This document shows, in pieces, positions 1-64,000 of a stretch of 64,000 bases of DNA. The notes beneath the pieces are model-generated. The model was not told the origin of the DNA, made no database searches, and was given only the letters and a program-made list of their open reading frames with translations. The position numbers and the translations under genes were made by a program. This DNA comes from Magnetospirillum sp. (GTDB taxonomy: Bacteria > Pseudomonadota > Alphaproteobacteria > Rhodospirillales > Magnetospirillaceae), in NCBI GenBank assembly GCA_024707145.1, contig JANQAI010000005.1, positions 496,001 to 560,000 of the forward strand, given 5' to 3'. Each line of letters starts with the position of its first letter. The first letter of the stretch is position 1.

Positions 1-1313
1 CGACCACGGCGAACCCCTTGCCCGCCTCGCCGGCGCGCGCCGCCTCGATGGTGGCGTTGAGCGCCAGCAGGTTGGTCTGGCTGGCGATGTCGGTGATCAG
101 CTTGACCACCGTGCCGATCTGGTTGGCCCGGTCCGACAGGCCGTCCACGATGGCGTTGGTGTCGGCTGCCCGTTCCGCCGCCTGACGGGCCTTGGCCGCG
201 CTCTCGCCGATACGGCTGCCGATCTCGCCGGCCGACGAGGCCAGTTCCTCGGCGGCGGCGGCCACCGTCTGCACGCTGGCTGCGGCCTGCTCCGACGCTC
301 CCGCCACCTCGGTGACCTGGCCTTCCGACCGCTGGGCGTTGTGGCTCAGGCTCTGGGCGGCGGAGCGCAGTTGGGCGGCCGAGGCCGACACGCCTTGAAC
401 CACGCCGGCGACCTGCTGCTCGAAGGCGCGGGCCAGGGCTTCCATCTCGGCCTGCTGGCGCTGGCGGGCCTGTTCCTCGGCCTGGGCCTGGGTGGTGCGG
501 AATTCCGCCGCCTCGATGGCGTTGGCCTTGAACACCGCCACCGCGCCGGTGATCTGGCCGATTTCGTCCCGGCTGGCCGAGGGCGGGATGGTCACCGACA
601 GGTCGCCATCGGCCAGCTTCAGCATGCCGTCGGTCAGGCGGCGCAGCGGACGCAGAGCGGCGGCGGTCCACAGGCCGAAACCCAGCCCGGCGGCCAGCGC
701 CACCGCGCACAGACTCATCATGAAGGCCTGGAACCCCTTGGCGGTGGCGCGCGCCTGGGCGGCTTCCGCGGTGTTCTTGCGCTCCTGCAGGTCGATGAAC
801 TGGTTGATGCGCGCCAGCCATTCCACGAAGGCCGGCCGGGCCTGCTCCATCAGTACGGCGCGGGCGTGCGCCTCGTCGCCGGCCCGGCGGGCGGCGATGA
901 CGGCGTCGATCATGGGCAGGGTGCGCGCCTCGGTTTGCTTGATGGAGGCGAGGATCTGCCGCTCCTCGGCCGAGATGTCGGTGCTTTCGGCGAACATGCG
1001 ATCCAGCGGCGCGGCGGATTCGGCGTAGAAGCCGCGCAGGCGGGCAATATCGCGCTCGACCGCGTCCAGTCTCGGCCGCACCGCCGACCAGCGTCACGTC
1101 GCGCAAGGCGATGGCGCGATCATGCACGCTGCCGCGGAAATTGATGGCATGGCGCTGCTTGACGCTGTTGGCTTCGTTCATGTGGGTCAGGGTGGCGTCG
1201 ATGGCCTTGACCTCATGGATGCCGATGGCGGTCAGGCCGCCCAGCAGGACCAGGACCGCACCGAACCCCAGCCCGAGCCGCAGCCGCAGGGACGCATTGA
1301 ATGTCGTGGTCAT
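1..1313 (-). CDS. Methyl-accepting chemotaxis protein, 3' end outside window, frameshifted
   Basis: A membrane chemoreceptor that would signal to CheA/CheW. The ATG at 1313 follows a GGAGGG ribosome site. The protein starts with a hydrophobic segment (about residues 11-32), then a periplasmic helical domain, a second membrane segment, a HAMP region (SRDEIGQ) and the start of the methyl-accepting signalling domain ([20 protein letters not shown]), where the window begins. The reading frame breaks once: an extra T at 1070 interrupts what should read ...GGAAELDAVERD... (about residue 81). Removing it restores one continuous chemoreceptor. The ligand cannot be told. Confidence 0.9.
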
Positions 1314-1553
1314 GGCACACCCTCCGTCAGCCGCCGGAAAGCCGCCCGGCCGGCTGTCCATGAACCTTATCGAAGGAGGTGTGTTGCGGCAAAATTGGTT
1401 ATTCCATATCGATAAATCGACTGAATCGATGAAATGGCCGTGGGAGGAGAGGCAGGCCGGCCTTTCCTCTTCGTGGTACGGCGGCTTAATATTCTCCGGG
1501 GCCGGGCGTTTGCGCGCGGCGGGCCGGTTTCGCGCCAGAGAGGAGAGCACGCC

Positions 1554-2579
1554 ATGACCACGGCACAGCAGGCTTTGCCCACCCGCCGCCTCGGCACCAC
1601 CGACATGGAGGTGACCCGCGTCGGCTTCGGCGCCTGGGCCATCGGCGGCCCGGACTGGGCGGTGGGCTGGGGCACCCAGGACGACGGCGAGTCCATCGCC
1701 GCCATCCGTCATGCGGTGGAGCGCGGGATCAACTGGATCGACACCGCCGCCATCTACGGCCTCGGCCATTCGGAGGAGGTGGTGCGCAAGGCCCTGGCCA
1801 CCATGGGGGCGGACAGCCGTCCCTATGTCTTCACCAAATGCGGCCTGGTGTGGGACGAGGCCAACCGCAAGGCGCTGCCCCTGCAGGTGGGCGCCGCCGC
1901 CAGCATCCGCCGCGAGGTGGAGGGCTCGCTGAAGCGCCTGGGGGTGGAACGCATCGACCTCTACCAGATGCACTGGCCCGCCACCGACGGCTCGCCGCTG
2001 GAGGAATACTGGCAGACCCTGCTGGACCTGAAGGCCGAAGGCAAGGTGCGCGCCGTCGGCCTGTCCAACCACAATGCCGCCCAGTTGGACGCGGCCGAGC
2101 GGCTGGGCCATGTGGACACGCTGCAGCCGCCCTTCTCGGCCATCCGCCCCGACGTGGCGGCGGCCGAGCTGCCGTGGTGCGCCCGCAACGGTACCGGGGT
2201 GATCGTCTACAGCCCCATGCAGTCGGGCCTGCTTACCGGCCGCTTCACCGCCGAGCGGGCGGCGGCGCTGCCCGCCGACGACTGGCGTTCGCGCAATGCC
2301 GAGTTCACCGGCGACAGGCTGGTCCGCAACCTGGCGCTGGCCGAGGCGCTGAAGCCGGTGGCCGAGCGCCACCGCACCAGCGTGGCGGCCGTGGCGGTGG
2401 CGTGGACGCTGGCCTGGCCCGGCGTCACCGCCGCCATCGTCGGCGCCCGCAATCCCGCCCAGGTGGACGGCTGGATGGACGCCGCCACGCTGGAACTGAC
2501 CAGCGTGGACGTGGCCGAGATCGCCGCCGCCATCCGCGCCGCCGGTGCGGGCTCCGGTCCAGTCACGCCCTGGGGCTGA
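1554..2579 (+). CDS. Aldo/keto reductase
   Basis: A 341-residue NAD(P)H-dependent aldo/keto reductase with the TIM-barrel family signatures. These are the catalytic Asp and Tyr in DTAAIYG (residues 63-69), the Lys in FTKCG, the His in YQMHW, and a C-terminal cofactor-binding stretch with IVGARNPAQ. The ATG at 1554 follows a GAGGAGAG ribosome site, so longer upstream reading is unlikely to be translated. It resembles the bacterial group often annotated as oxidoreductases acting on small aldehydes or sugars. The substrate is unknown. It stands alone between a divergent chemoreceptor gene and a separate EAL gene. Confidence 0.92.
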   Translation: MTTAQQALPTRRLGTTDMEVTRVGFGAWAIGGPDWAVGWGTQDDGESIAAIRHAVERGINWIDTAAIYGLGHSEEVVRKALATMGADSRPYVFTKCGLVWDEANRKALPLQVGAAASIRREVEGSLKRLGVERIDLYQMHWPATDGSPLEEYWQTLLDLKAEGKVRAVGLSNHNAAQLDAAERLGHVDTLQPPFSAIRPDVAAAELPWCARNGTGVIVYSPMQSGLLTGRFTAERAAALPADDWRSRNAEFTGDRLVRNLALAEALKPVAERHRTSVAAVAVAWTLAWPGVTAAIVGARNPAQVDGWMDAATLELTSVDVAEIAAAIRAAGAGSGPVTPWG

Positions 2580-2675
2580 GGCGGCGAAGGGCGCATGGCA
2601 GCGTGGCGGCCGCCGGGTTTGCCGCGCCGCCGTCATGGTGTAGGGTGGAAGCGTGTAAAGCCGAAGGGGAACAGG

Positions 2676-3830
2676 ATGCACGCGCCCGCCACCGCCGATT
2701 GTCTGCTGGTTGTCGATGTCCGCGCCGTGGCCCGTCTGGACGAGGTCATGGGGGCGCGGGTGATCGATGCCGCGCTGGGCGAACTGGCCGAGCGCCTGCC
2801 CGCCCTGTTGGGCGGCGTGCTGGCCCAGGCGCGCGACCACAGCCTGCTGGCGGCCAGCCGGCGCGGCCGCTGGTGCGTGCGTTTCCGGTGGGACCAGAAG
2901 CCCCTGGCGGAAAGCCTGGACGAGGCGCTGGGCGTGGTGGAAGCGGCGGCCCAACGGCTGGTGGGCGACTTGGCGGTCGAGGTGTTCGGCGGCGCCACCG
3001 GCCCATGGGCGCAGCTGGTCGCCCGCGCCCTGCTGCTGCCGCCGGATTGCTCCGACCTGGATGCCTGGGTGGACGGCCACATGGCCGAGGCGGGCAGCCG
3101 CCTGGACGAGCTGGCGGAATTGCGCCGCCGGCTCGAGGCCATCATCGCCCAGGGCGCCATCCGTACCATGCTCCAGCCCATCGTCGCCTTTTCCGATGGC
3201 GCCGTGCTGGGCTTCGAGGCGCTGTCGCGCGGCCCCGCCGGCACCGATCTGGAACGGGCCGACCACCTGTTCTCGGCCGCCGCCCGCACCGGCCTGTCGC
3301 TGGACCTGGAACGGGCCTGCGCCGTGCAGGCCGTCCAATGGGCCGACCGCCTGCCGCCCAACCTGTTCCTGTCCATCAACGCCAGCGTGCCGTTGCTGAT
3401 GGACGATCAGGTGCGCACCCGTCTGGCGCGGCCCCGCGTGGTGGCGGAGATCACCGAGCACCTGCCCATCGACGGCGCCTCCGGCCTGCTGCCCGCCCTG
3501 GCCGAATTGAAGGCGGGCGGTGCCGGCATCGCGCTGGACGACACCGGCTGCGGCTTCGCCGACGTGGCCGCCGCCGAAATCATCCGCCCCGATATCGTCA
3601 AGCTGTGCATCACCGTCATTCGCGGCGTCCGCCGCAATCCCTCGATCCTGCCCGGCCTGTGCCAGACGGTCGGACGCTTCCGCGCCCTCGGCGCCCAGGT
3701 GCTGGCGGAAGGGGTGGAAACCGACGAGGAGCGCCGGGTGCTGGCCTCGGCGGAGATCGACCTGGCCCAGGGCTGGCTGTTCGGCAGGCCGTTCCCGGCC
3801 GAAGAGTGGCAGCACCATGCCGCATTCTAG
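2676..3830 (+). CDS. EAL-domain protein (probable c-di-GMP phosphodiesterase)
   Basis: 384 residues. The C-terminal part (from about residue 150) is an EAL domain: LQPIV, FEALSRG (the EAL signature), a conserved Asn in SINAS, Glu in EITEH, LDDTGCG, VKL, EGVET, and a terminal GWLFGRPFP. Most metal and catalytic residues of an active c-di-GMP phosphodiesterase are recognisable. The N-terminal 140 residues are not a clear known domain and may be a degenerate GGDEF-like or sensory region. The ATG at 2676 is preferred over an upstream in-frame start because GAAGGGGA lies just before it. No transmembrane segment is visible, so it is probably cytoplasmic. Confidence 0.88.
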   Translation: MHAPATADCLLVVDVRAVARLDEVMGARVIDAALGELAERLPALLGGVLAQARDHSLLAASRRGRWCVRFRWDQKPLAESLDEALGVVEAAAQRLVGDLAVEVFGGATGPWAQLVARALLLPPDCSDLDAWVDGHMAEAGSRLDELAELRRRLEAIIAQGAIRTMLQPIVAFSDGAVLGFEALSRGPAGTDLERADHLFSAAARTGLSLDLERACAVQAVQWADRLPPNLFLSINASVPLLMDDQVRTRLARPRVVAEITEHLPIDGASGLLPALAELKAGGAGIALDDTGCGFADVAAAEIIRPDIVKLCITVIRGVRRNPSILPGLCQTVGRFRALGAQVLAEGVETDEERRVLASAEIDLAQGWLFGRPFPAEEWQHHAAF

Positions 3831-3933
3831 GGCATGTATGCGGGGTTGATTATTTACCGGGCATTCGGGCTTGCATCCTCCGCCGGCCTTCCCGATGATG
3901 GCGCCGTCACACGACCAGCATGGGGAAGCACGG

Positions 3934-4227
3934 ATGGCCGAGCAGCCGGCGGATTGGCGCTATTTCGTCACCTATAGCGGGGTCAAGCTGCCGCTCAAGC
4001 TGGTCGACCCGCTGCAGCCGGCCGAGCTGAACCACCGCAACACCTTCATCCGCGCCCGTTTCGACGCCGAGGATCGGCTGGTGGAATGCGAGAAGATGGT
4101 CTATGGCGAGATCCACCTGTCGCACCGCTACACCTATGGCGCCGACGGCACCCTGAAACGGGCCGAGATCGTCATGGACGACGAAACCACGGTGATGGAG
4201 TTCTCGGGTTCGTCCCGTTCGGATTGA
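3934..4227 (+). CDS. Small conserved protein, DUF6156-like
   Basis: 97 residues, soluble, rich in aromatic and charged residues (WRYFVTYSGVKLPLKLV near the start). It looks like the small DUF6156 family of alphaproteobacteria, but I assign this from memory of the N-terminal motif. No function is known to me. The ATG at 3934 is preferred because GGGGAAG precedes it at normal spacing. An in-frame upstream start at 3871 has no such site. A strong hairpin follows the stop codon. Confidence 0.7.
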   Translation: MAEQPADWRYFVTYSGVKLPLKLVDPLQPAELNHRNTFIRARFDAEDRLVECEKMVYGEIHLSHRYTYGADGTLKRAEIVMDDETTVMEFSGSSRSD

Positions 4228-4234
4228 ATCGCTT

Positions 4235-4271
4235 TACCGTCACCCTCGGGCTTGATCCGAGGGTGACGGTA
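4235..4271. terminator. Perfect 15-bp hairpin between converging genes (palindromic repeat family A)
   Basis: Positions 4235-4249 are the exact inverse complement of 4257-4271, with a 7-base loop containing CTTGA. It lies between the ends of two converging genes (4227 and 4305) and could stop transcription from either side, although it lacks a long T tract. The sequence belongs to the repeat family seen at 14525, 19390, 25926, 33901, 36384 and 38082. Confidence 0.7.
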
Positions 4272-4304
4272 AATGGGAGCGCTTCCATCTAAGGGAGACG
4301 GCTT

Positions 4305-5504
4305 CTAGCTCCGCCGTCCCACCCACAGATAGGCCGCCAGGGCCCCCAGGCCGCAAATGGCGATGACCCCGGCCATGGGCAGGGCGGTGCCTTCGCCGGC
4401 CAGTCCCACCAACGGGGCGGCCAGGGCGCCCACCAGGAAGCGCAGTGTGCCCAGCAGGGCCGAAGCCGAGCCGGCGGTACGGCCGTGGTTGGTCAGCGCC
4501 AGGGCGGCGGAATTGGGGGCGATGAAGCCCTGCGACGCCACCACCAGGAACAGCCCGGTCAGCACCGCTTGCAGGCCCAGGTTCAGGGCGACCGCCACCT
4601 CCAGGAACACGGCGCCGACGGCCAGCGCGGCCAGTCCCCACCCCATCAGCCGCTTGGGCCCCAGGCGGTGGACCAGCCGTCCGTTGACCTGGGACATGCC
4701 GATCAAGCCCAGGGCATTGGCGCCGAACACCATGGCGAAGTCCTGGGCCGACAGCCCGTAGATCCTCTGCAGCACGAAGGGCGAGCCGGCGATGTAGGCG
4801 AACATGGCGGCGAAGGCGAGGCCGGCGATTCCCGAGTTGGTCAGGAAGACGCGGTCGCGCAGCACCCCGACGAAGGAATCCAGGGCCGCCCGCCAGCCGC
4901 CGCCGTGGCGGCGTTCCGGCGGCAGGGTTTCGGGCAGCAGCCTGGCGGTGGCGGCCAAGACCGCGATGCCGGCGCCGGTCAGGAATATGAAGATGCCGTG
5001 CCACGACACCACCCGCAGCACCTGGGCGCCCAGCACCGGCGCCAGGATGGGCGCCAGGCCCATGACCAGCATCAGCATGGAGAAGAAGCGCGCCGCCGCC
5101 GCGCCGTGATAGAGGTCGCGGGCCATGGCGGTGGCGATGACCAGGGCGGCCGAGCCGGCCAGGCCTTGGGCGAAACGCGCGGCCACCAGCAGCGGCGCGG
5201 TGGGGGCCAGGGCACACAGCACGCTCATCAGGGCATAGACGGCCAGGCCGATGAACAGCGGCCGCCGCCGCCCCACCGCGTCCGACACCGGCCCCACCAG
5301 CAGCTGCCCCAGGGCCAGGCCCAGGATGCAGGCCGACAGGCTGACCTGGATCACCGAGGGCGCGACGGCGAAATCCTCGGCGATGTGCGGCAGGGCCGGC
5401 AGGTACATGTCGATGGACAACGGCCCCAGGGCGGTGACGCTGCCCAGGCAGAGGACGAAACGAAGCCTGGGCCTTTCAGCTCTGCCATCTTGCTCTGTCG
5501 TCAC
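4305..5504 (-). CDS. MFS drug exporter, Bcr/CflA type
   Basis: 399 residues with about twelve hydrophobic segments. The beginning is diagnostic of the Bcr/CflA group: LGPLSIDMYLPALP in the first membrane helix region, then SVIQVSLSACILGLALGQLLVGP and SDAVGRRRPL (the MFS loop 2-3 motif). It probably exports drugs or small metabolites by proton antiport. The only suitable start is GTG at 5504. The first ATG in frame lies inside the first helix. The ribosome site before GTG is weak. It is transcribed leftwards and separated from gltB by about 200 bases of repeats. Confidence 0.9.
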   Translation of the reverse strand: MTTEQDGRAERPRLRFVLCLGSVTALGPLSIDMYLPALPHIAEDFAVAPSVIQVSLSACILGLALGQLLVGPVSDAVGRRRPLFIGLAVYALMSVLCALAPTAPLLVAARFAQGLAGSAALVIATAMARDLYHGAAAARFFSMLMLVMGLAPILAPVLGAQVLRVVSWHGIFIFLTGAGIAVLAATARLLPETLPPERRHGGGWRAALDSFVGVLRDRVFLTNSGIAGLAFAAMFAYIAGSPFVLQRIYGLSAQDFAMVFGANALGLIGMSQVNGRLVHRLGPKRLMGWGLAALAVGAVFLEVAVALNLGLQAVLTGLFLVVASQGFIAPNSAALALTNHGRTAGSASALLGTLRFLVGALAAPLVGLAGEGTALPMAGVIAICGLGALAAYLWVGRRS

Positions 5505-5519
5505 CTGGCTTCACCTTCA

Positions 5520-5629
5520 TTGTCATCCCGAGGAGCGTCGCGACGAGGGATCTTCGTCCAGCACATCGGTGCAGGAAACGATCCCCGCCTCGACAGGATG
5601 AGATCCCTCGCCTGGGCTCGGGATGACAA
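5520..5629. repeat. Inverted intergenic repeat, family C (copy 1)
   Basis: The element begins TGTCATCCCGAGG and ends CTCGGGATGACA, with internal GAGGGATCTT and AGATCCCTCG that also pair. A second copy with the same ends and the same internal pair lies at 58875-58974, and a remnant lies around 36330-36364. No coding potential is apparent. It fills the gap between the exporter gene and gltB. Confidence 0.85.
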
Positions 5630-5684
5630 TCCTTGGGGCGGAGATGACGCGCCATTGTGGCGCCTTTGTGGCGAGGCATCCAGG

Positions 5685-5710
5685 ACCCTCTCCCGCGAAC
5701 GGGAGAGGGT
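5685..5710. terminator. Hairpin just downstream of gltB (half copy of repeat family B)
   Basis: An 11-base stem (ACCCTCTCCCG / CGGGAGAGGGT) with a CGAA loop starts 11 bases after the gltB stop codon on the minus strand. It is one arm of the larger family B repeats at 10277 and 30980. It could serve as a transcript end or 3' stabiliser, though it has no T tract. Confidence 0.55.
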
Positions 5711-5720
5711 CAACAGAGCA

Positions 5721-8700
5721 TCACTCCGCCGCCACGGCGGCGGCCTTGCTTACCGGGTGCTCCAGGCGCGACAGCATCTCCTTGGGCACCACCTGGCGGA
5801 ACTTGGGCAGCTCGCGCGCCCAGTCGGCCAGGATGGATTCCGCCCACGAGCTCTGGGTTTCCTGCACGTGCTTCTGGATCAGGCCCTTCAGCACGCCCTC
5901 CCAGTGCTCGGTCTCCACCGCCTGCCAGATGACGCTGTCGGGGTTGACCTTGGACTCGAAGGTGCCGTCGCCGTCATAGACGAAGGCCATGCCGCCGGTC
6001 ATGCCGGCGGCGAAGTTGGCCCCCACCGGCCCCAGGATGGCGATGGTGCCGCCGGTCAGGTATTCGCAGCCGTTGGAGCCGCAGCCCTCGATCACCGCGT
6101 TGGCGCCCGAATTGCGCACGGCGAAGCGCTCGCCGGCCTGACCCGCCGCGAACAGCTCGCCCGCGGTGGCGCCGTACAGCACGGTGTTGCCGATGATGGT
6201 GTTCTCATTGGACTTGAGCTGGCTGGAGACCGGTGGCCGCACCACGATGGTGCCGCCCGACAGCCCCTTGCCCACGTAGTCGTTGGAATCGCCGAACACC
6301 TCGAGCTTCAGGCCCTGCACGGCGAAGGCGCCGAGCGACTGGCCGGCGGAACCGCGCAGGCGCACGGTGATGTGACCGGGCTGTAGCCCGGTCATGCCGT
6401 ACTTCTTGGTGATCTTGTGGCTCAGCTTGGTGCCGATGGCGCGCTGGACGTTGCGGACGTTGTAGGTCAGCTGCATCTTCTCGCCCTCTTCCAGCGCCGG
6501 GGCGGCGTCGCGGATGATCTGGGCGTCCAGGGTCTCGGGAACCTCGTTGCGCTCCGTCTGGGTGCAATAGCGGGCATGGCCGCCGGCATCGGCCTGGGCC
6601 AGCAGCGGGTTGAGGTCCAGGTCGTCCAGGTGGGCGCCGCCGCGGCTGACCTGCTTCAGCAGGTCGGTGCGGCCGATGATCTCGGTCAGGCTGCGCACGC
6701 CGAGGGACGCCAGGATCTCGCGCACCTCCTCGGCGATGAAGCTGAACAGGTTCACCACCTTGTAGGGGCTGCCGGTGAACTTGGCGCGCAGGGCCGGGTC
6801 CTGGGTGCAGACGCCGACGGGGCAGGTGTTGGAATGGCACTGGCGCACCATGATGCAGCCCAGCGCCACCAGGCTGGTGGTGCCGATGCCGAATTCCTCG
6901 GCGCCCAGCATGGCGGCGATGACGATGTCGCGCCCCGTCTTCAGGCCGCCGTCGGTGCGCAGCTTGACGCGGTGGCGCAGGCGGTTGAGCGTCAGCACCT
7001 GGTGCGCCTCGGACAGGCCCAGTTCCCACGGCAGGCCGGCGAACTTGATCGAGGTCTGCGGGGACGCGCCGGTGCCGCCCACATTGCCCGAGATCAGGAT
7101 GGTGTCGGCCTTGGCCTTGGCCACGCCGGCCGCCACCGTGCCGATGCCCGAGCGGCTGACCAGCTTCACCGTCACCTTGGCCTGCGGGTTGATCTGCTTC
7201 AGATCGTAGATCAGCTGGGCCAGGTCCTCGATGGAATAGATGTCGTGGTGGGGCGGCGGGCTGATCAGGGTCACGCCGGGGGTGGCATGGCGCAGCTTGG
7301 CGATCTCCACCGTCACCTTGAAGCCGGGCAGCTGGCCGCCCTCGCCGGGCTTGGCCCCCTGGGCCACCTTGATCTCGATCTCGCGGCACATGTTCAGATA
7401 TTCGGCGGTGACGCCGAAGCGGCCCGAGGCGATCTGCTTCACCGCCGAATTGGCGTTGTCGCCGTTGGGGCGCGGGCGATAGCGCTCGCGGTCCTCGCCG
7501 CCCTCGCCCGACACCGACTTGGCGCCGATGCGGTTCATGGCGATGTTGAGCGCGCCGTGGGCTTCCGGCGACAACGCGCCCAAGGACATGCCCGGGGTCA
7601 GGAAGCGCTTCCTGATCTCGGTGATGCTCTCCACCTCGTCCACGCTGACCGGAGCACCGGCCGGCTTGAAGTCCAGCAGGTCGCGGATGGTGATGGGCGG
7701 CAGCCGGCGCATGCCCTCCGAGTACTTCTTGTAGAGCGAATAGCTGTCGGTGTTGCAGGCGGTCTGCAGGGTATGGATCAGCGTGCCGTCGAAGCTGTGC
7801 GCCTCGGCGCCGCGGCGGAAGCGGTAGAAGCCGCCCACCGGCAGCACCGCGCTGTCCACGGCGAAGCCCTTGGCGTGCTGGGCGATGGTGGTCTTCTCGA
7901 CGCCGTTCAGGCCGATGCCGGAAATGCGGCTGGTCATGCCGGGGAAGAATTCCGCCACCAGCGAGCGCGACAGGCCGATGGCCTCGAAGTTGTAGCCGCC
8001 GCGGTACGAGCTGATGACCGAGATGCCCATCTTGGACATGATCTTCAGCAGGCCCTGGTCGATGGCCTTCTTGTAGTTGCGCACGCCCTCTTCCAGGGTG
8101 AGGCCGGGGAACAGGCCGCGGCGGGCGCGGTCGGCGATGGCCTCCTGGGCCAGATAGGCGTTGACGGTGGTGGCGCCGACGCCGATCAGCACGGCGAAGT
8201 AATGCACGTCCAGCGCCTCGCCGGTGCGGACGTTGAGGCTGGTCCAGGTGCGCAGGCGCTCGCGCACCAGATGCGAGTGCACGCCGCCGGTCGCCAGGAT
8301 CATGGGCAGGCCGACGCGGTTCTCGCCGATGGCCTTGTCCGACAGGATCAGGTGGGTGCAGCCGGCGCGCACCGCCTCTTCCGCCTCGCGCCGCACACGG
8401 GTCAGCGCGTCGCGCAGGGCGTGCTCGCCGTCCCTGGGATTGAAGGTGCAGTCGATCTCGGCCGCCGCCTCGCCCATGTAGCGGCGCATGGCCTCGAACT
8501 CGGCATTGGACAGCACCGGCGAATCAAGGGCCAGCACGTCGCACTGGGTCTCGTGCTCGTCCAGGATGTTGCCCAGGTTGCCCAGCCGGGTGCGCAGGCT
8601 CATCACCCGCGATCTCGCGCAGGGAATCGATGGGCGGATTGGTGACCTGGCTGAAGTTCTGGCGGAAGAAGTGGTGCAGGCCGCGATACTGCTCGCTCAG

Positions 8701-10251: not shown

Positions 10252-10276
10252 GGTGCTCTCCTTCGTTTGCATTCTT

Positions 10277-10402: not shown

Positions 10403-10405
10403 TCG

Positions 10406-11840
10406 TCACTCCGCCGCCCGGGTGGCCTTGGCCTTCAGGTAAGCGTCGATGCCCGCCGCCGCGTCGCGGCCGTCGCGAATGGCCCACACCACCAGGCTGG
10501 CCCCGCGTACGATGTCGCCGGCGGCGAAGACGCCGTCCACGCTGGTCATGGCGGTGCGGTTGTCCACCTTGAGGGTGCCCCAGCGGGTGACCTCCAGGTC
10601 GGGCGCGCCGAACAGGGCCTGCTGGTCCTCGGGGTCGAAGCCCAGCGCCTTGATCACCATGTCGGCCGGGATGGCGAAATCCGAGCCCTCGATGGCCACC
10701 GGGGTCTGGCGGCCCGAGGGATCGGCCACGCCCAGGTGCATGCGCACGGCCTTGACCCCGTCCACCTTGGCGCCGCCCGCGATGGACAGCGGTGCCGCCA
10801 TCCATTCGAACTGCACGCCCTCTTCCTCGGCGTGGTGCACCTCGCGCTGCGAACCGGGCATGTTGGCGCGGTCGCGGCGATACAGGCACTTCACCGACTT
10901 GGCGCCTTGGCGGATGGCGGTGCGCACGCAGTCCATGGCGGTGTCGCCGCCGCCGATGACCACCACGTCCTTGCCGGCCGCGTTCAGGGTGCCGTCGTCG
11001 TAGGCCGGCACGCTGTCGCCCAGGCTCACCTTGTTCGAGGCGATCAGATAGTCCAGCGCCGCATGCACGCCGGGCAGGGTGTCGCCGGGCACGCCCAGGC
11101 CGCGCGCCTTGTAGACGCCGGTGGCGATCAGCACGGCGTCGTGCCTGGCGCGCAGTTCGGCCAGGGTGACGCCGCGGCCCACCTCGACGCCGGTCCGGAG
11201 CGTGACGCCGCCCTCGGCCAGCAGCCGCGTCCGGCGCTCCACCACGTCCTTGTCCAGCTTGAAGCCGGGGATGCCGTAGATCAGCAGGCCGCCCATGCGG
11301 TCGTGGCGGTCGTAGACGGTGACCTGATAGCCGAAGCGGCGCAGCATGTCGGCCGCTGCCAGACCGCCCGGTCCGCCGCCGACGATGCCCACCGACTGGA
11401 CCAGGCTCGTGGCGCGGCTTGGGCGGCTTGACCCAGCCGTTGATGAAGGCGGTCTCGGTGATGTGCTTCTCCACCGCGCCGATGGTCACGGCGCCGTGGG
11501 TGGACTGCTCCAGCACGCAATTGCCTTCGCACAGGCGGTCCTGCGGGCAGATGCGGCCGCAGATCTCGGGGAAGGTGTTGGTGGCGCTGGAGGCGGCGTA
11601 GGCCTCCTCCATGCGGCCCTGCGCCGTCAGCATCAGCCAGTCGGGGATGTTATTGGCCACCGGGCAGTGGATTTGACAGAACGGGATGCCGCACTGCTCG
11701 CAACGCGAGGCCTGGGCGCCGGCGCGCTCCTCGTCGAAGGGGCGGTAGATCTCGCCGAAATCCGAGGCGCGCTCGGCCGCCGCGCGCTTGTCGGGCGCCT
11801 GCGGATGGAGGCGGATGAACTGGAGCATCTTGCGGGTCAT
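10406..11840 (-). CDS. gltD: Glutamate synthase (NADPH) small subunit, one frameshift
   Basis: Passes electrons from NADPH through FAD and iron-sulfur clusters to GltB. The N-terminus holds the cysteine motifs for 4Fe-4S clusters (CEQCGIPFCQIHCP and CGRICPQDRLCEGNC). FAD binding follows at GIVGGGPGGLAAA and NAD(P) binding at VVIGGGDTAMDC. The C-terminus has the FAD motif VFAAGDIVRG. One extra G at 11404-11405 breaks the frame after ...KPRHE (residue 145). Removing it joins both halves into a 477-residue protein. ATG 11840 is taken as start. Transcribed ahead of gltB, with a repeat in the 154-base gap. Confidence 0.96.
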
Positions 11841-12096
11841 GAACGCGCTCTCTGCAACGAAGCCCACCGGGGGCATGAATACCGGACGCTTGTTGTACGC
11901 CAGGAAGGTTCGGGAAAACCAGCGAAAAACGCACAATAGGGCAAATATACTGCCGTAAATATCGGGAGGATGGCGGCAATCCATTCGCAACCAGGGTGAT
12001 GGTTGGGTAAAATAGGTCCGAAACGAGACTAATGCCGCCCTTCCCGGCCATCCCACGCCAATGGTATATAGGCCCAACGCTAGGGATGAGGCGGCC

Positions 12097-14664: not shown

Positions 14665-15940
14665 CTAATCCCCCAGGAATTCCAGTTGCCAGGTCATTTC
14701 TTCCGCCGTCAGCGGGAAGGTGCCGTTGACGGCATGCAGCTGGCGGCTGGGCGCCAGGCGGAGCAGCTTGATCTGCAACTGCTCGCAGAAGGCCATGGAC
14801 AGGCCGGCCTTCCAGGTGACCGCGACGATGCCCTTGGCGCTCTGGGTCTGCACCGTCTTGCGGATGGTGTTCAGCGACAGGCCGGCCAGCACTGTCAGCG
14901 CCGCCATGACAAAGGCGTGGTCGTTGCCGGCCAGGGCGGCGTCCACCGTGCTCTCGTCCAGCCTGTTCTGGAATTTCAGCTGCTGGACCCGCATCAGCGC
15001 GGTGCTTTCGTCGGCGGCCTTGCGGGCATTGGCCTTTTCCGGGCCGGTGGCCTCCAGGCTCCTCCAGGCGCTTGCGCACCACGGCGGCCACCGCCACCGC
15101 CGCCTCGGGTTCCAGGTCCTGGCGGGCGGCCAGGCCCTGCAGCAGGTTGGCGGCGACGAAGCGGGCCAGCTTGCCGGCGGCCTTGGCCGACAAGTGCGGG
15201 CGTTCCGCCAGCGGGCGGTGCCACGCCTCGATATCGGTAGCGCGGTCCACCAGCCGGTCCAGGGTTTCCTCGCGGATCTGGGCCGAGGCGTTGCCCAGCA
15301 GGGTGGCGATGGCCTCCACGTCGTCGGTGGCGGCGATGGCGTCGGCCACCCGCGTATTGACGGTGCCGCGCTTGGAGATGGCCGACAGCGCCCCCGGAAC
15401 GGGTCCCGAGGCGATGATCTCCAGCAGGTCGTCGTCGGTCAGCAGGGGCGAGAATTGCAGCACCGGAGCCGACACCACGATCTCGGCGTCGCGGGCCAGC
15501 CGGCGGATCACCTCGGGCGGCGCGTCGGCCACGTCCTTCAGCGCGCCGGCGAGGATTTCGCGCACCCGCGTCACCTGGTCGCGGGCGAGGCGCTCCAGCG
15601 CCTCGTAGGTCAGGCGGCGCAGGCGGTCCTGCTCGTTGGCCGACAGGCCCGGCGCCAGCCGCACGATCTTGCCGGCCAGGTCGGTGCGCACCTGCTCGTC
15701 GCCGTCATCGGCCAGCAGCAGGTTGGCCTGGGGCGGCGCCTGCTCGTTGCGGGCGACCCGGCGGCGCACCTCGGCATTGGCGTCCTCGGCCAGGAAGTAC
15801 AGGATTTCCGGCTGCAGGTCGGTGCGCTCGGCCAATTCCGCGCGCACCTTGGGATCGGTGTCGGCGGCCAGCCCGCGGGCCTCCTCGTAGGTCACGCGGC
15901 GGGCCGGGCCCAGCAGCCGGCGCAGCAACCCGACCACCAT
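14665..15940 (-). CDS. DUF2336 family protein, one frameshift
   Basis: Made of repeated helical units in which LA-x-D-x-x-x-x-VR patterns recur (for example PKVRAELAERTDL, AEVRRRVARNEQ, EQVRTDLAGK), as in the HEAT-like DUF2336 family of alphaproteobacteria. Function is unknown. Members often accompany c-di-GMP or two-component genes, as here. One extra G at 15057-15058 breaks the frame after ...RKRLEE (residue 294). Without it the protein is 424 residues and ends ...WQLEFLGD. Its ATG lies only three bases after the stop of the diguanylate cyclase gene, so the two are translated from one message. Confidence 0.8.
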
Positions 15941-24986: not shown

Positions 24987-25896
24987 TCAGGACAACACGC
25001 TGCCCTTGGGAATGGCGAAGCCGCGCAGCAATTCCTCGGCCGACATGGGCGCCTTGCCGGCGCGCTGCACGCGGGCGAGCCTCAGCGCGCCGTCGCCGCA
25101 GGCCACCGTCAGGGCCTCGTCCAGTACCGTGCCGGGGGCGCCGCTGCCGGCGGCCGGCTGGGCGGCCAGCACCTTCAGGCGCTCGCCCGCCACCTCGCAC
25201 CACACCCCCGGCCACGGGGTGAGGCCGCGTACCTGCCGCTCCAGGCTCCGCCGCCGGGCGGCTCCAGTCCAACCGGCCCTCGTCCTTGGCCAGCTTGGCG
25301 GCGTAGGTGACGCCGTCCTCGGGCTGCCGGACGTGCTCCAGTTCGGGATAGTGCGCCACCGCGTCCACGATCATGCGGGCGCCCAGGGCGGCCAACTGGT
25401 CGTGCAGGGTCGCGGCGGTGGTCTCGGCGGTGATGGGCAGCGCCTGCTTCAGCAGCATGTCGCCGGTGTCCAGACCCACATCCATCTGCATGATGGTCAC
25501 GCCGGTTTCGGCGTCGCCGGCCAGGATGGCGCGCTGGATGGGGGCGGCGCCGCGCCAGCGCGGCAGCAGCGAGGCATGCACGTTGAGGCAGCCCAGGCGG
25601 GGCGCCTCCAGCACGGCCTTGGGCAGGATCAGGCCGTAGGCGGCCACCACCGCCATGTCCAGGCCGAGGTCGCGGAAGGCCTGCTGCTCCTCGGGCGATT
25701 TCAGGCTCTTGGGGGTGCGCACCGCGATGCCTTTGGCGGCGGCGAAGGCGTGCACCGGGGTCGGCTGTTCCTTGTGGCCGCGCCCGGCCGGCCGGGGCGG
25801 CTGGGAATAGACGCAGGCGACGTCGTGGCCGGCCTCCATCAGGGCGGCGAGGATGGGGACCGAGAAATCGGGGGTCCCCATGAAGCAGAGTCTCAT
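24987..25896 (-). CDS. fmt: Methionyl-tRNA formyltransferase, one frameshift
   Basis: Formylates initiator Met-tRNA using 10-formyltetrahydrofolate. Motifs: [14 protein letters not shown] at the start, catalytic Asn and His in [17 protein letters not shown], and Asp in [11 protein letters not shown]. The C-terminal OB-like domain follows (LTPWPGVWC). One extra G at 25244-25245 breaks the frame after ...RPAAE (residue 217); removing it gives a normal 302-residue enzyme ending IPKGSVLS. Operon partner of def, whose product removes the same formyl group later. Confidence 0.96.
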
Positions 25897-25925
25897 ATCG
25901 GCGAACCTCTTGAAACGCTTCCCCG

Positions 25926-26015
25926 CATCGTCATCGCCGGGCTTGACCCGGCGATCCAGGGCGGCGGAGCCGCCTTCGGCAGCATGGATGCCCGGGTCGA
26001 GCCCGGGCATGACGG
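25926..26015. repeat. Palindromic repeat, family A, between def and fmt
   Basis: Two hairpins, CGCCGGG/CCCGGCG with loop CTTGA and ATGCCCGGG/CCCGGGCAT with loop TCGAG, on either side of a GC-rich spacer with its own GGCGGC/GCCGCC pairing. Confidence 0.85.
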
Positions 26016-28102: not shown

Positions 28103-29246
28103 TTGGACGCGACGGTGGTGATCGTGGGGGGCATCGCCCTGGTGGCGGTCGGCGTGCTGGTGGCCCTGGTGCTGCGCCGGCCGGGCGGCGGTGTGCGCGA
28201 GGAGGCCATGGCCCGCGCGGTGGAAAGCGTGGCCCAGTCCCAGTCCGCCCTGACCGGCCGCCTGTCCCAACTGGCCGAGAGCCAGGCCGCCGCCCAGGCC
28301 CAGTTGGCCGAGCGGCTGCAGGCGCAGGAGCGCGCCCTGTCCCGCGCGGTGGAGGAGCGCCTGTCCGCCCTGGCCAAGCGGGTGGACGACGGCCTGCAGC
28401 AAAGCGCGCAGCGCCAGTCCACCAGCCTGCACGAACTGCGCGAACGACTGGCGGTCATCGACGCGGCCCAGAAGAACATCACCGAGCTGTCGGCCCAGGT
28501 GGTGTCGCTGCAGGACATCCTGTCCAACAAGCAGGCGCGCGGCGCCTTCGGCGAAATCCAGTTGAACGACATCGTCAGTTCCATGCTGCCGCCCAGCGCC
28601 TACAAGTTCCAGGCTCCGCTGGGCGACGGCCGCCGGGTGGACTGCCTGCTGGACCTGCCCAACCCGCCCGGCGCCATCGCCATCGACGCCAAGTTCCCGC
28701 TGGAAAGCTTCCACGCCCTGCGCAACGCCCGCGACGACGCCGAGCGCACCGCCGCCGGCCGCGCCTTCGCCACCGCCATCCTCAAGCATGTGCGCGACAT
28801 CGCCGAGAAGTACATCGTGCCCGGCGAGACCGCCGAATCGGCGCTGATGTTCCTGCCCTCGGAAGCCATCTACGCCGAGTTGCACGCCAACTTCCCCGAC
28901 GTGGTGGAGAAATCGTTCCGGGCCAAGGTATGGATCGTTTCGCCCACCACCTTGATGGCGACGCTCAATACGGTGCGCGCGGTGCTCAAGGACGCCCGCA
29001 TGCGCGAGCAGGCCGGGCTGATCCAGAAGGAGGTGCGCACCCTGCTGGACGACATCGGCCGGCTCGATGATCGCGTGGCGGCTCTGGACAAGCATTTCGG
29101 CCAGGCCGCCGAGGATATCCGCCAGATCCGCATCTCCACCGACAAGGTGGTCAAGCGCGCCGACCGCATCGAGGCGGTGCAGGCTGGGCGACGACACCCC
29201 CGCCACCGAGGTGGCCCCGCCCCAGGCCAAGCTGCCGGTGGGGTGA
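28103..29246 (+). CDS. rmuC: DNA recombination protein RmuC, frameshift near the 3' end
   Basis: N-terminal membrane helix (VVIVGGIALVAVGVLVALVL), a coiled coil (about residues 35-140), then the RmuC domain of nuclease-like fold (KQARGAFGEIQL, YKFQAPLGDGRRVDCLL and IAIDAKFPLE). RmuC limits inversion at short inverted repeats in E. coli, notable in a region rich in palindromes. Start TTG 28103 follows GGAGGGG. One extra G at 29182-29183 shifts the last 20 residues; corrected, it is 380 residues and ends ...KLPVG at 29246. Confidence 0.93.
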
Positions 29247-35395: not shown

Positions 35396-35750
35396 ATGGC
35401 CGCCACGCTACGCCTGATGCCCCATCACGATCCCCACTGGCGCGACAAGGTGGCGGAGCCTGCAACAGCGCCACTCCCGGCTGCTGGCCCGCGACGGGCT
35501 GCTGACCGTCGAGGAACAGCGCGAGCTGATGCAACTGCGCGAGGCCATGGACCGGGCGCTCAATTCCCGCTTCCGCACCACCGCGGAATACCGCGATTTC
35601 TATTTCGCCCGCGCTCGCCAGTTGCTGGAGGACGAGGGCATCGAGATGGACCTGCCCGACGTGGCCGGCGACGCCACGGTGGAAGAGATCGACCGGGTGC
35701 TGGGCCTGGTCTGGGCGGCGGTGGAAGTCACCAACTCCGAGACGTTCTGA
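35396..35750 (+). CDS. Small conserved-looking soluble protein, one frameshift
   Basis: 117 residues after correction. Mostly helical and charged (EEQRELMQLREAMDRALNSR, then YRDFYFARARQLLEDEG), no signal peptide or known domain that I recognise. One extra C at 35459-35460 breaks the frame after DKVAE (residue 21), at the same GAG/CTG position seen in other genes. The restored frame continues ...LQQRHSRLLARDG. Codon use matches the neighbours, which supports a real gene. Confidence 0.65.
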
Positions 35751-38199: not shown

Positions 38200-39718
38200 T
38201 CACAGGTCGTGCCCCGAATAGGAACAGTTGAAGGACTTGTTGATCAGCGGGAAGTCGGCGACGATGTTGCCCTCGATGGCCGCTTCCAGCAGCGGCCACT
38301 GGAACCAGGACGGGTCGTGGGGGTGGCAGCGCACCACCTTGCCGGCCTCGGAAAGGCGCACCCACACCACGATCTCGCCGCGGAAGCCCTCGACGATGCC
38401 CAGGCCCTCGCCGGCCCGGGTGGGCAGCGGCACGCTCAGCGGCCCCTGGGGCATGCGCATCAGGATCTGCTCGATCAGCGACAGGCTTTGCCCCACCTCC
38501 TCGGCGCGGACCAGGATGCGGGAATGGACGTCGCCCTCGGCCCGCACCGGGATGTCGAAGTCCAGGTCGTCATAGGGCTGATAGCCGGGAATCTTGCGGG
38601 CATCGTGGCCGCGCGACGAGGCGCGGCCGACGAAGCCGCCGGCACCGTAGCGGTGGACCAGCGAGCCCGAGACGATACCGGTGCCGGTGGTGCGGTCCAG
38701 CAGCGAGGGCGATTCCTCGTACAGGTGGATGGCCCGCTTGAAGTCCTTGCGCACCAGATGAAGCAGCTTGCGCAGGGTCTCGCGGTGGGCGTCGTCCAGG
38801 TCGGCGGCGACGCCGCCGGGGACGATGCGGTCCATCAGCAGGCGGTGGCCGAAACAGGCGGCGTTGGCCTGCAGCACCCGCTCGCGCAGCACGCCCAGAT
38901 GGCTCAGCATCAGGGCGAAGGCGGCGTCGTTGCAGATGGCGCCGATGTCGCCCAGGTGGTTGGCGACGCGCTCCAGGCTCGGCCATCAACGCGCGCAGGT
39001 ACTGGGCGCGCGGCGGCACCTCGACGCCCAAAGCCGCCTCGGCCGCGCGGGCGAAGGCGAGGCCGTAGGCCACGGTGGAATCGCCCGAGGCGCGGGCCAC
39101 CAGGCGGGCGGCGTCGGCCAGCGGCTTGCCCTGCGTCAGCCCCTCCAAGCCCTTGTGGACGTAGCCCAGGCGCTCTTCCAGCCGCACCACCGTCTCGCCC
39201 TGGGCGTGGAAGCGGAAATGGCCGGGCTCGATGATGCCGGCATGCACCGGCCCCACCGGGATCTGGTGCAGGCCCTCGCCTTCGGCGGGACGGAACTTGT
39301 AGGGCAGCGGGCCACCCTCGTAGGCGCGCGGGCTGCCCAGCGGGTGCTTGACCGCCCAGCGGCCATGGTCCAGCCACGGGCGCTGGTCGTTCAGGCCCTG
39401 GGGCGCCAGGCCGTAGAGGTCGAAGATGGCGCGCTCCAGCCGGATGGCGCCGGGGCGGTGCTTGGCCAGCCCGACGAAGCGGTGGTTGAGGCAGGGATGC
39501 GACACCACGGCGATGTCGCCCGCCTGCTCGTCGCGGAAGACGGCGTGCACCTCGGTGGGCTCGGCCCATTCCGCCAGCAGCACCCAGTCGGCCGCCGCCA
39601 GCCGGTCCTCGAAGCCGCGCCAGCCCGGCGCGTCCAGCTGGAAGCGCGGCCACGGCCGGTGGCCCGGCACCTCGCGGCCGATGGACAGGAAATCGAGCAG
39701 GGTGACGTTGCCCAGCAT
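38200..39718 (-). CDS. hyfG: Hydrogenase-4-like large subunit without NiFe ligands, one frameshift
   Basis: 505 residues after correction. The N-terminal 150 residues resemble the NuoC-like domain of HycE/HyfG; the rest is the NuoD/hydrogenase large-subunit fold (YVHKGLEGL, LERVANHLGDIGAICND, FGHRLLMDRIVPGG). In true hydrogenases an RxCGxC motif follows HKG; here it reads RASGDS. The C-terminal DPCxxC is replaced by SFNCSYSGHDL. The NiFe site is therefore lost and hydrogen chemistry is unlikely. One extra G at 38976-38977 breaks the frame after ALMAE (residue 247). ATG 39718 starts five bases after hyfF ends. Confidence 0.92.
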
Positions 39719-49945: not shown

Positions 49946-49948
49946 CGC

Positions 49949-56293: not shown

Positions 56294-56392
56294 CATGGCG
56301 GTGCGTGCGGATTAAGCCGTCCTTGGCGGCGATCCATTCCCGATTGAAACCGTTCCAGACAGCATCGCGCCATAGGCCACGAGGAACGGTCC

Positions 56393-57784: not shown

Positions 57785-57795
57785 GGAGGTTGGAC

Positions 57796-58479: not shown

Positions 58480-58506
58480 ATACATCTCATATATGGAGGT
58501 GTCTCG

Positions 58507-58866
58507 ATGTCTCATGATTGGCCGGCGCTGACGAAGGAACTCTCGGGCCAGTTGGCTCAGCTGCGCGGCGGCATTCCCGAGGTGATGAAGGGCTTCTCGG
58601 CCCTGGCCAAGGCCGCCGGCAGCGCCGGGGCGCTGGACGCCAAGACCAAGGAACTGGTGGCCATGGGCATCGCCATCGCGGCGCGCTGCGACGGCTGCAT
58701 CGCCTTCCACAGCAAGACCGCCCTGGAACTGGGCACCACGCGCGAGGAACTGATGGAAGTGGCCGGCATGGCGGTCTACATGGGCGGCGGCCCGTCGCTG
58801 ATGTACGCGGCGCTGGCGCTGCAGGCCTACGACCAGCACGCCGCCGCCATGCAGCCGGCGGAGTAG
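58507..58866 (+). CDS. AhpD-like (carboxymuconolactone decarboxylase family) protein
   Basis: 119 residues. CMD-family pattern with the redox CxxC and following His in RCDGCIAFHSKTA, preceded by LDAKTKELVAMGIAIA. Such small proteins act as alkylhydroperoxidase-like thiol peroxidases. The AT-rich stretch before it (TTAAATTAGATACATC...ATATGGAGGT) probably contains its own promoter, with a strong ribosome site. Confidence 0.9.
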   Translation: MSHDWPALTKELSGQLAQLRGGIPEVMKGFSALAKAAGSAGALDAKTKELVAMGIAIAARCDGCIAFHSKTALELGTTREELMEVAGMAVYMGGGPSLMYAALALQAYDQHAAAMQPAE

Positions 58867-58874
58867 CGGCAAGT

Positions 58875-58974
58875 TTGTCATCCCGAGGCTTGCCGAGGGA
58901 TCTTCGCCTGGCACACCACGTCAGTACTGGCGAAGAATACCAGGATGGGATCCCTCGCCGCGGCTCGGGATGAC
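58875..58974. repeat. Inverted intergenic repeat, family C (copy 2)
   Basis: Same ends (TGTCATCCCGAGG / CTCGGGATGACG) and internal GAGGGATCTTCG / GGATCCCTCG pairing as the copy at 5520-5629. On the minus strand its right half is translated as the last residues of the ABC exporter. Confidence 0.85.
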
Positions 58975-60840: not shown

Positions 60841-60920
60841 CAGCCTAAGATGAGGGTGCGCCGGGACAAGTCAACCGAGATCGGCGCCGGCCCCGTTGCA
60901 GCGCACAGGCGCCCTTGCCT

Positions 60921-62384
60921 ATGCTGCCGCTCATGCGTCATCCCACCCAGTTGCATTCCGGTGGCATCGACTGGCCCAGGATCAGGATCCTGGTGTTCAG
61001 CCAGGACGATGCCTTCCGCTTCCTCACCCGCCAGACCTTCCGCAAGCTGAACGTGCGCGAGGTGCTGTCCACCAGCGTGCCGGCCGACGCCACTCCCATG
61101 ATGGGGCAGGGGCCCGACATCGCCTTGGTGGACGTGGACGGCGACGTGCAGGCGGCGCTGGCCTTCCTGCAGCGGGTGCGTGCCGCCGATGCCGCGATGC
61201 CGGTGCTGATGGTGGCCAAGGCCGACGACCGTGCCCTGATCGCCGGGGCGCTGCCGCTGGGCATCGAGGGCTTCGTGCCCAAGCCGGTCTCCGGCCATGA
61301 ATTGTCGCACCGGGTGGGCGACAGCCTGGCGCAGCCCCGGCGGATCGCCGCGCCCAAGCCGGTAGCCAAACCGGCGGCGCCGGCCGCCGCTTCGCCCGCG
61401 CCGGCTCCGGTCCCGGCTTCGGCGGCGATGGCCGATGGCGGTGCCCTCAGGGCCGAACTGGCCGAGCTGACCGCCCGCCTGGGCAACAGCATCGATGGTC
61501 ATGGCAAGGATGGGCATGGCGGCCATGGCCCGCTTCGGCGCTCGCCCGGCGGCGGCACCTACGGTTCCGCCGCGGATGGCACCGCCGTCGCGCCGGCGGC
61601 GGATGCGGGCGCCTGGCTGGGCGACGACGATCTGGTGCCGGCCAAGCCCAGGACGGGTGGCGGCACGCTGGATGCGGCCGACGCGGCTCCGGCTGCGCCC
61701 GCCGCCACCGGCAAGCTGGAAGCCCTGATGGCGGCGCTGCCCGACAAGCTGAAGCCCAGGCGCAAGCGCAAGGATTCGGCCGAGCAGGCCGAGGAGGAGG
61801 CCGAGCGCGCCCGTTGGCAGGCGGAACTGGCCGAGGCCGGCCACCGGCAGCGCCAAGGTGAGGACGTGGCCGGGCTGGACGTGGACGCCATCGTCGCCGG
61901 CCACCTGGCGTGGCTGACCACCCAGGGCGCCGAGGGCAAGCGGGCCGAGTTCCGCAAGATGGACCTGGCCGGCGCCGACTTGGCCGGCACGGTGCTCGCC
62001 AATGCCGGCTTCCGCGATGCCGACCTGTCCGACGCCCGCCTGGCCGAGGCCCGCCTGGACGGCGCCGATTTCCGCCACGCCTGCCTGGGTGCCGCCGACC
62101 TCGGCGGTGCCAATCTGGGGGTGGCGCAGTTGCGCCACTGCGACCTGCGCCTCGCCAACCTCCAGGGCGCCTCCCTGCGCGGCGCCGACCTGTCGGGCGC
62201 CCGGCTCGGCGGCGCCAAGATGGCCGGTGCCGACCTCAAGGGCGCCACCCTGGTGGGCAGCGATCTTGCCGGCGCCGACCTCTCCCGGGTCGACGGCCTG
62301 ACCCAGGGACAGGTGGACAAGGCCGTATGCAACCCCAAGACCAAGCTGCCGCCCGGCGTGTTCCGCCCGCGCAAGCAGGAATAG
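60921..62384 (+). CDS. Receiver-like domain fused to pentapeptide repeats
   Basis: About 487 residues. Residues 18-130 look like a response-regulator receiver fold (RILVFSQDDAFRFLTRQTF, DIALVDVDGD as the phosphorylation strand, GFVPKPVSGHEL at the end). Next comes a long low-complexity Ala/Pro/Gly-rich linker (about 140-250), then a charged helix (KRKDSAEQAEEEAERARWQAEL), and a C-terminal pentapeptide-repeat domain (about 345-465, repeated A(D/N)LxG: DLAGADLAGTVLA, LDGADFRHACLG). The domain pairing is unusual. It might be a phospho-responsive scaffold; no output is known. It is divergent from the ABC exporter. Start 60921 or 60933. Confidence 0.8.
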   Translation: MLPLMRHPTQLHSGGIDWPRIRILVFSQDDAFRFLTRQTFRKLNVREVLSTSVPADATPMMGQGPDIALVDVDGDVQAALAFLQRVRAADAAMPVLMVAKADDRALIAGALPLGIEGFVPKPVSGHELSHRVGDSLAQPRRIAAPKPVAKPAAPAAASPAPAPVPASAAMADGGALRAELAELTARLGNSIDGHGKDGHGGHGPLRRSPGGGTYGSAADGTAVAPAADAGAWLGDDDLVPAKPRTGGGTLDAADAAPAAPAATGKLEALMAALPDKLKPRRKRKDSAEQAEEEAERARWQAELAEAGHRQRQGEDVAGLDVDAIVAGHLAWLTTQGAEGKRAEFRKMDLAGADLAGTVLANAGFRDADLSDARLAEARLDGADFRHACLGAADLGGANLGVAQLRHCDLRLANLQGASLRGADLSGARLGGAKMAGADLKGATLVGSDLAGADLSRVDGLTQGQVDKAVCNPKTKLPPGVFRPRKQE

Positions 62385-62494
62385 GGCAGGGCACTCCATC
62401 GAAAGCAGGATGGCGCCCTCGCCCTCCAAACCGATTGCGATGGTCGCGTTCGGACGTATTCTATTCCGGGGGAAACGTCGGAACGGGGACGGAA

Positions 62495-64000
62495 GTGGCT
62501 CCTGTGGATGCCCAGCGGCTGCGGCGCGCCGTCATCACCTATGCCATCGTCGCCATGGCCGCCATCAGCCTTGCCGTGGCCGCCACCGCCATCGTCCCGC
62601 TGGCGACGAAACTGCGCGACGGCGTGCATGCGGGCCTGCAGCACGAGCTGGCGCTCAAGGTGCTGGCCGGCGGTCAGGTGCTGGGCCGGGCGCGCAGCCT
62701 TGCCGAACAAGTGACCAGCCGTACCGTCATCCGCGAACGCCTGGAGATGTACAACCGCGGCGCCGTCGCCTTGGCGGCGCTGACCGAATTCACCCGCGAC
62801 AAGCTGGCCGACGCCCTGAGCCTGTCTCCCGAGCCTGGTGGGGGTCACCCGCTATGCCGCCTCGGGCGAGGCGGTGGTGGCCGTGGGCGCCTATGCCGAG
62901 GACGGTCCCATGCCCGTGCTGCCCGCCGGCAGCGGCAGCGCCGTGCTGGGCCTGCACCGCCAGAACGGGCGCCCCTTCCTGGTGGCGGCGGCGCCCATCC
63001 GCAGCCGCGACGGCAGCGTCGCCGGCATCGACGTGGCGGTGGTCGCCGCCACCGGCTTGCAGGCCATCGTCGACGATGCCGGTTCCATGGGCCGGACCGC
63101 CTGGGCGGCGCTGGTGGAAGTGGCCGGACAGCCGCGTCCGCTGATGGTGTCGGGCCCCGAATTCTCGCTGCGTCCCGGCGCTGACGCGGCCGCCGCCGAG
63201 GCGGCTGCCCGCGGGCATGTGGCGCGGCGCGAGGCGGCCGGGCTGATCCTGGCGGCCGCGCCGGTGCCCAATTCCAACTGGGTGCTGGTGCTGGCCCTGT
63301 CCGCCGACGAGGCCGCCCGCGACGTCAACCGGCTGCTTTACTGGGTGGTGGCGGGGGCCGTGCTGGCTTCCGCGCTCGGCGTCGGTGGGCTGGCGCTGGT
63401 GCTGCGGCCGCTGACCGGCGCCTTCATCGTCCAGACCGAGGACATGGCCCGCCAGATCGAGGATCTGGAGCAGGCCAAGGCCGAACTGGCGGCCAAGTCG
63501 CGCTCGCTCGCCTTGTCCAACGCCGATCTCAAGGAATACGCCTACGCCGCCTCGCACGATCTGCAGGAGCCGGTGCGCACCATCGTCGGCTTCGCTCAAC
63601 TGCTGAAGCGCCGCTACGGCAACCGGATGGGCCCCGAAGCGGACGAGTTCATCGCCTTCATCGTCGAAGGCGCCGAGCGCATGCGCCGCCAGATCAACGA
63701 CCTGCTGTCCTATGCCAGGTTGGATCACGGCGAATTCCGGCTGGAGCCGGTATCCATGGAGGCGGTGGTGGACGAGGCCCTGACCGGCCTCACCGGCGCC
63801 ATCGCCGAATCGGGGGCCGAAATCACCCGCCATCCGCTACCCGCCGTGCGCGGCAGCAGCGACGCGCTGGTGCGGCTGATGCACAATCTGGTCGCCAACG
63901 GCCTGAAATTCATCGCCAAGGGCGAGGCGCCGCGCATCGATATCAGCGGCACCGTGGTGGACGGCTGGGCCGACATCGTCGTGCGCGACCACGGCGTCGG
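62495..64000 (+). CDS. Sensor histidine kinase, 3' end outside window, frameshifted
   Basis: Start GTG 62495 after GGGGACGG. First membrane helix about residues 12-35, a periplasmic sensing region (about 40-275), second helix (LLYWVVAGAVLASALGVGG), a coiled coil, then a HisKA domain with the phospho-accepting His in ASHDLQEPVR and a HATPase N-box (HNLVANGLKF), ending in the first Gly loop at the window edge. One extra C at 62834-62835 breaks the frame after LSPE (residue 113); the restored reading is LVGVTRYAASGE. The stimulus is unknown. Confidence 0.9.

Follow-up and report, generated by a model that had tools for sequence, protein, structure and literature searches.

Why should eight genes in a single stretch of a bacterial genome each lose their reading frame through one extra base at the same short word? 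The stretch, hereafter the window, comprises 64,000 nucleotides of Magnetospirillum sp. DNA (C2:496001-560000 of a 5,144,195-bp genome in 15 contigs; completeness 91.57%, contamination 6.31%), and Magnetospirillum species are among the nearest named relatives of its GltD, small protein and sensor kinase. An earlier note on this DNA attributed the eight frameshifts to one extra base in the centre of AGCT, and held it simplest to suppose that base calling or assembly had erred systematically, possibly where a motif is modified. That view proved to be the best supported, with a modified motif as a likely part of it. We hold with good confidence that a sequencing error is repeated at GAGCTG and is set off by a DNA modification specific to the organism. 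The frameshifts are most probably sequencing errors, and given such an error, organism-specific modification is very probably its cause.

The extra base lies at window positions 1070, 11405, 15058, 25245, 29183, 35459, 38977 and 62834. At all eight breaks the site reads GAG+N+CTG or CAG+N+CTG, and none of the sites is in or beside a base run, where a homopolymer-length error would fall. Both sides of every break were scanned separately against protein families or homologues. The frame changes at AG+N+CT in all eight genes: homology shows this for seven of them, and for the eighth it is indicated by coding statistics together with a matching Pfam domain.

A frame tracker based on codon usage was run over 673,239 bp of the genome with a simple gene-boundary filter (next stop within 45 nt). 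Of the 97 same-strand frame breaks that passed, 73 were of the insertion type and the other 24 of the deletion type. The association with AGNCT greatly exceeds chance, the word being present within 12 nt of 39 of the 73 insertion-type breaks, of none of the 24 deletion-type breaks and of 2.1% of random nearby positions. Four relatives (239,159 bp) analyzed with the same tracker gave six breaks, two of them of insertion type and none at AGNCT. When 1,869 AGNCT sites were scanned one by one, 45 appeared insertion-like and 6 deletion-like. Insertions were not equally frequent at unrelated words, as 11 other gapped palindromes were nearer parity (largest difference, 128 versus 91 at CGNCG; largest ratio, 8 versus 3 at TCNGA). 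Note that the raw counts for AGNCT (39/73, and 45 versus 6) still contain some aliases that were later taken out, and the counts of a looser scan (below) contain some as well.

A stricter scan, covering 653,239 bp, produced 56 hits, from which seven were dropped by hand: an alias at window position 62819, an alias of a G-run break in gltB at 8596, mirror-strand duplicates in pieces L002 and L007, and three apparent gene boundaries (L002 8133, L014 8559 and L029 5169). The homology check covers part of the 49 curated events that remained (the event at L029 9720, for example, is without it). The breaks in rmuC and the small-protein gene escaped the strict scan and so do not count among the 49.

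Counted by coding-strand hexamer, events were found at 41 of 410 GAGCTG, 4 of 76 CAGCTC, 2 of 37 GAGCTC and 2 of 227 CAGCTG sites, and at no other AGCT hexamer. Rates for GAGCTG and CAGCTC did not differ (p = 0.28), and the comparison of GAGCTG with AAGCTG gave p = 1e-15. The AG+N+CT core named in the earlier note is present, but AGCT alone is not sufficient for insertion: AAGCTG was struck at 0 of 509 coding sites, and all 49 events are at SAGCTS. Intact GAGCTG sites also occur, as had been remarked, and number 369 in coding sequence. Of the 41 GAGCTG events, 40 have an inserted C and one an inserted A; all four CAGCTC events have an inserted G. The G at CAGCTC mirrors the C at GAGCTG, which indicates one DNA event read from opposite strands. 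Flanking bases also had an effect, with insertions at 30 of 94 sites conforming to [ACT][CG]GAGCTGG[AGT] and at 5 of 309 sites outside [ACT][CG]GAGCTG[ACG][AGT].

Forty-seven of the 49 events fall between codons. Because intact coding GAGCTG sites favor the same phase (352 of 369), the apparent rule that the extra base separates a Glu or Gln codon from a Leu codon mostly reflects codon usage. As a statement about every event, the rule fails genome-wide: two of the 49 events split a codon, both at CAGCTC (two of the four events at that hexamer). One is in GAPDH, where the pieces aligned to the solved chain 4p8r_A end at residue 214 and resume at residue 216 with one residue between them. At the other, an MCP domain is followed across the break by a weak match to PilZ that is below the cutoff. 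The error is thus independent of gene strand and phase, occurring in both orientations, with a mirrored base, and within codons in 2 of 49 cases.

These data bear on the proposal that the insertions are real and are decoded, either by a tRNA that reads a quadruplet (CCUG had been suggested) or by programmed +1 frameshifting at GAG-N-CTG. Decoding would predict the imbalance seen at phase 0 GAGCCTG in the main genome, where about 40 frame changes compare with 6 sites at which GAG CCT G is read without a change of frame, but it leaves the strand mirroring unexplained. The inserted base follows the DNA strand and can be A, two events (the one in GAPDH included) split a codon, and the coding-strand CAG-G-CTC and GAG-A-CTG events share no single mRNA codon context. 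Intact GAGCTG predominates, and ordinary anticodons are listed for all eight of the tRNA genes recorded in the 34 loci covered. Because the pattern tracks a DNA word rather than an mRNA codon, quadruplet decoding and programmed frameshifting were rejected on the basis of strand mirroring and the in-codon events. The CCUG option is ruled out by a DNA-level, strand-mirrored pattern in two phases, and decoding of any kind is extremely improbable.

An internal control is provided by the contig itself. Past about 956 kb, C2 differs in composition (L149, L150, L152-L159, L019 and L020), and this part carries second copies of SucC (81% identity to the one on C9) and PurH (72% identity to the one at C2:192625). 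The duplicate genes together with the shift in composition indicate that two bacteria were probably joined in C2 as a chimera. We grouped 52 pieces of the genome by composition, a grouping of our own, into 31 main, 11 foreign, 5 tail and 5 mixed. The mixed pieces (L013, L016, L018, L149 and L151), in which no AGNCT insertions were found, were left out, and the five tail pieces gave 0 insertions and 66 intact GAGCTG sites in a looser scan. Note that the idea of a foreign segment was prompted by L018-L021, and that L019 and L020 are counted together with nine foreign stretches fetched later.

In 220 kb of foreign DNA, the strict scan found insertions at 0 of 365 coding GAGCTG or CAGCTC sites, compared with 45 of 486 in the main genome (Fisher 9e-12). 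When both strands were considered, no insertion was found at 376 foreign GAGCTG sites, including 87 in the hottest context; under main-genome rates such a result has a probability of 6e-16 over all sites and of 3e-15 within the hottest context. Nine of the stretches, fetched once a foreign segment was suspected, contained 293 GAGCTG sites and gave no strict hit. Scan blindness is not the reason for the zero, since insertions spiked at GAGCTG were recovered in foreign DNA (118/146) as in the main genome (104/142). Nor is lower sequence quality the source of the GAGCTG errors, because other frameshifts are denser in the foreign part (35 in 220 kb versus 51 in 653 kb). Of these, 19/35 foreign and 24/51 main-genome frameshifts are beside runs of four or more bases, against a background of 10%. 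The error is therefore confined to one organism under one pipeline, as judged by the zero count in the apparently foreign segment.

The same comparison weighs heavily on a generic base-caller bias, by which the k-mer around GAGCTGG would be miscalled without any modification. Such a bias would account for a dependence on flanking bases that resembles k-mer context, and run-length indels are indeed present in the assembly. The foreign segment, however, is clean at GAGCTG, hottest context included, although its other errors are denser, and generic bias is strongly disfavored for this reason; we consider it unlikely. Most likely, something about the DNA of the main organism causes the errors at GAGCTG. 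If the bacterium chemically marks its DNA at a GAGCTG-type word, the mark would set off repeated base-calling insertions, and the assembled consensus would keep the extra base, so that genes would look frameshifted. A modified motif is made likely by the foreign DNA that shares contig C2; the enzyme that would modify it is putative, and the sequencing platform was probably nanopore.

Other features of the foreign part were recorded in passing. It includes a stretch of lower GC content (0.58-0.61; L160-L163 and L021, at C2 about 1.26-1.40 Mb). Among codon pairs in foreign DNA, GAG-CTC and CAG-CTG are strongly avoided (observed/expected 0.04 and 0.30, respectively) and CAG-CTC is favored (3.04), as if the palindromes GAGCTC and CAGCTG were shunned there (L019, L020 and others).

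The earlier note had also allowed for a hypermutable site, at which real and recent insertions would have entered the DNA of the cell. The extra letters do stand in the deposited sequence, and two gene copies that are 97.9% alike over 861 bp (L030 near 1160 and 3400, minus strand) share the same GAG+C+CTG break. At 49 events in 653 kb, however, several hundred genes would be broken, including GAPDH, fmt and gltD. In addition, deletion-like breaks at the sites are few (6 versus 45 insertion-like in the raw scan), and rmuC is intact in five same-genus relatives. Because so many core genes would be broken, a hypermutable site is very unlikely. If the breaks are instead repeated sequencing errors, the genes that carry them are likely to be whole in the living bacterium.

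Another candidate considered was that GAGCTG is also subject to additional miscalls of G as A. The codon pair GAG-CTG has an observed/expected ratio of 0.61 in the main genome and 1.10 in the foreign segment. Among four relatives, the ratio is 0.42 in G010, 0.55 in G002, 1.07 in G001 and 0.91 in G007. As the pair is rare in two of the four relatives also, its rarity in the main genome needs no error, and the candidate was rejected.

Several points weigh against an error set off by modification. Both the error and the modification are inferred from assembled sequence, and the methylases that might target GAGCTG are candidates only. About 9% of GAGCTG sites are struck (45/505). Two 23S genes, each with three SAGCTS sites in the aligned part, have 0 AGNCT insertions relative to those of relatives, a comparison with no power; a 16S gene that could serve as an untranslated control was not found. 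The looser scan gave one foreign hit (L155 16464), near a C-run break 14 nt away, that the strict scan dropped. Outside the favored context the foreign zero (0/191; Fisher 0.16) is not telling, and a difference in coverage, besides one in modification, could set the foreign segment apart. Finally, the errors reported from Listeria nanopore assemblies are mainly mismatches, unlike the one-base insertions at GAGCTG (PMC10687267).

Five of the eight broken genes, each open in two frames, are on the minus strand of the window. The chemoreceptor gene (1..1299, approximate start, running off the window) is interrupted by AG+A+CT at 1068..1072 with a log-odds of 48 in the strict scan, and the match of its downstream piece to 4HB_MCP_1 begins at profile position 99; this break was placed by coding statistics and a Pfam domain entered mid-profile. 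The other four are interrupted by AG+C+CT, were found in the strict scan, and match one family on both sides of the break in successive frames. For gltD, the glutamate synthase small subunit (10409..12056, the open frame searched, start uncertain; break at 11403..11407), TIGR01318 (NCBIfam) is matched over positions 2-130 and then 143-466. The DUF2336 protein gene (14668..15940; break at 15056..15060) matches PF10098 (Pfam) over 1-135 and then 139-231. For fmt, methionyl-tRNA formyltransferase (24990..26010, the open frame searched, start uncertain; break at 25243..25247), the matches to TIGR00460 (NCBIfam) are 1-219 and 221-307, and for the hyfG or NuoD-like gene (38203..39718; break at 38975..38979) those to NF004739 (NCBIfam) are 3-97 and 98-278.

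Three genes are on the plus strand, again in two frames. In rmuC (28115..29243) the break, AG+G+CT in a CAG context, is near the 3' end at 29181..29185, and the gene is unbroken in the five same-genus relatives. The small-protein gene (35396..35747, start taken from homologues) is interrupted by AG+C+CT at 35457..35461, and three homologues of 117 aa are continuous across the site. The sensor histidine kinase gene (62495..63998, running off the window) has AG+C+CT at 62832..62836, a strict-scan hit, and the match to homologue P0070 passes from one frame to the next at window position 62835.

The eight breaks at AGCT thus hold, but they are not the full set of frameshifts in the window, which contains at least two more; each of these is at a G run instead of AGCT. 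At about 8603-8608 on the minus strand, gltB is also broken (NF008730 is matched over 12-526 and then 532-1469 in the next frame), and at about 21334 on the plus strand a gene that we read as acetyltransferase-like has a deletion-type frame change. A family scan of the pieces of the latter gene gave no match, and an Rfam search of the window likewise gave none.

Scaled up from the 653 kb sampled, with its 49 events, the number of genes in this record that are probably cut short in error comes to several hundred. Two truncated products, P0036 and P0080, are already in the protein collection that was searched, and any recoding, pseudogenes or gene loss deduced from the record would mislead. If a modified motif is the cause, the scars locate the motif and mark the change of organism along the contig from the assembly alone. 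We see moderate value in the scars for recognizing modification and chimerism without recourse to reads, and little as biology.

Published nanopore errors that are bound to a motif and specific to a lineage provide precedent for errors set off by modification (PMC10687267, PMC6591954). In Listeria, nanopore assemblies are reported to have contained modification-mediated systematic errors at GCAGC and GCTGG, a lineage-specific modification system was suspected, and amplification removed most of the errors; five poor genomes had 1533-5670 mismatches and 7-306 indels (PMC10687267). As here, consensus errors recur at one short motif in one lineage only, although the Listeria errors were checked by amplification and those at GAGCTG are known from the assembly alone. 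In a benchmark of then-current Oxford Nanopore Technologies basecallers, the Dcm motif CCWGG accounted for about 70% of consensus errors, the methylated motif apparently being missing from the training data (PMC6591954). Again a single motif, proposed as modified in our case, concentrates the errors; enzyme and motif are established for Dcm, unlike for GAGCTG. Among the literature matches listed, as far as their excerpts extend, there was no published account of GAGCTG insertions in nanopore data. Homopolymer indels of long-read assemblies are found here too, since 24 of the 51 other main-genome frameshifts have a run of four or more bases no further than 8 nt away, but GAGCTG is no homopolymer and its errors are limited to one part of the assembly. 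The closest parallel in use is the refinement of bins by methylation motifs, for which NanoMotif is used in PMC12342191, and in which a motif signal likewise tells contigs of different organisms apart; unlike in NanoMotif, the signal here is an error scar that is legible in the assembly alone.
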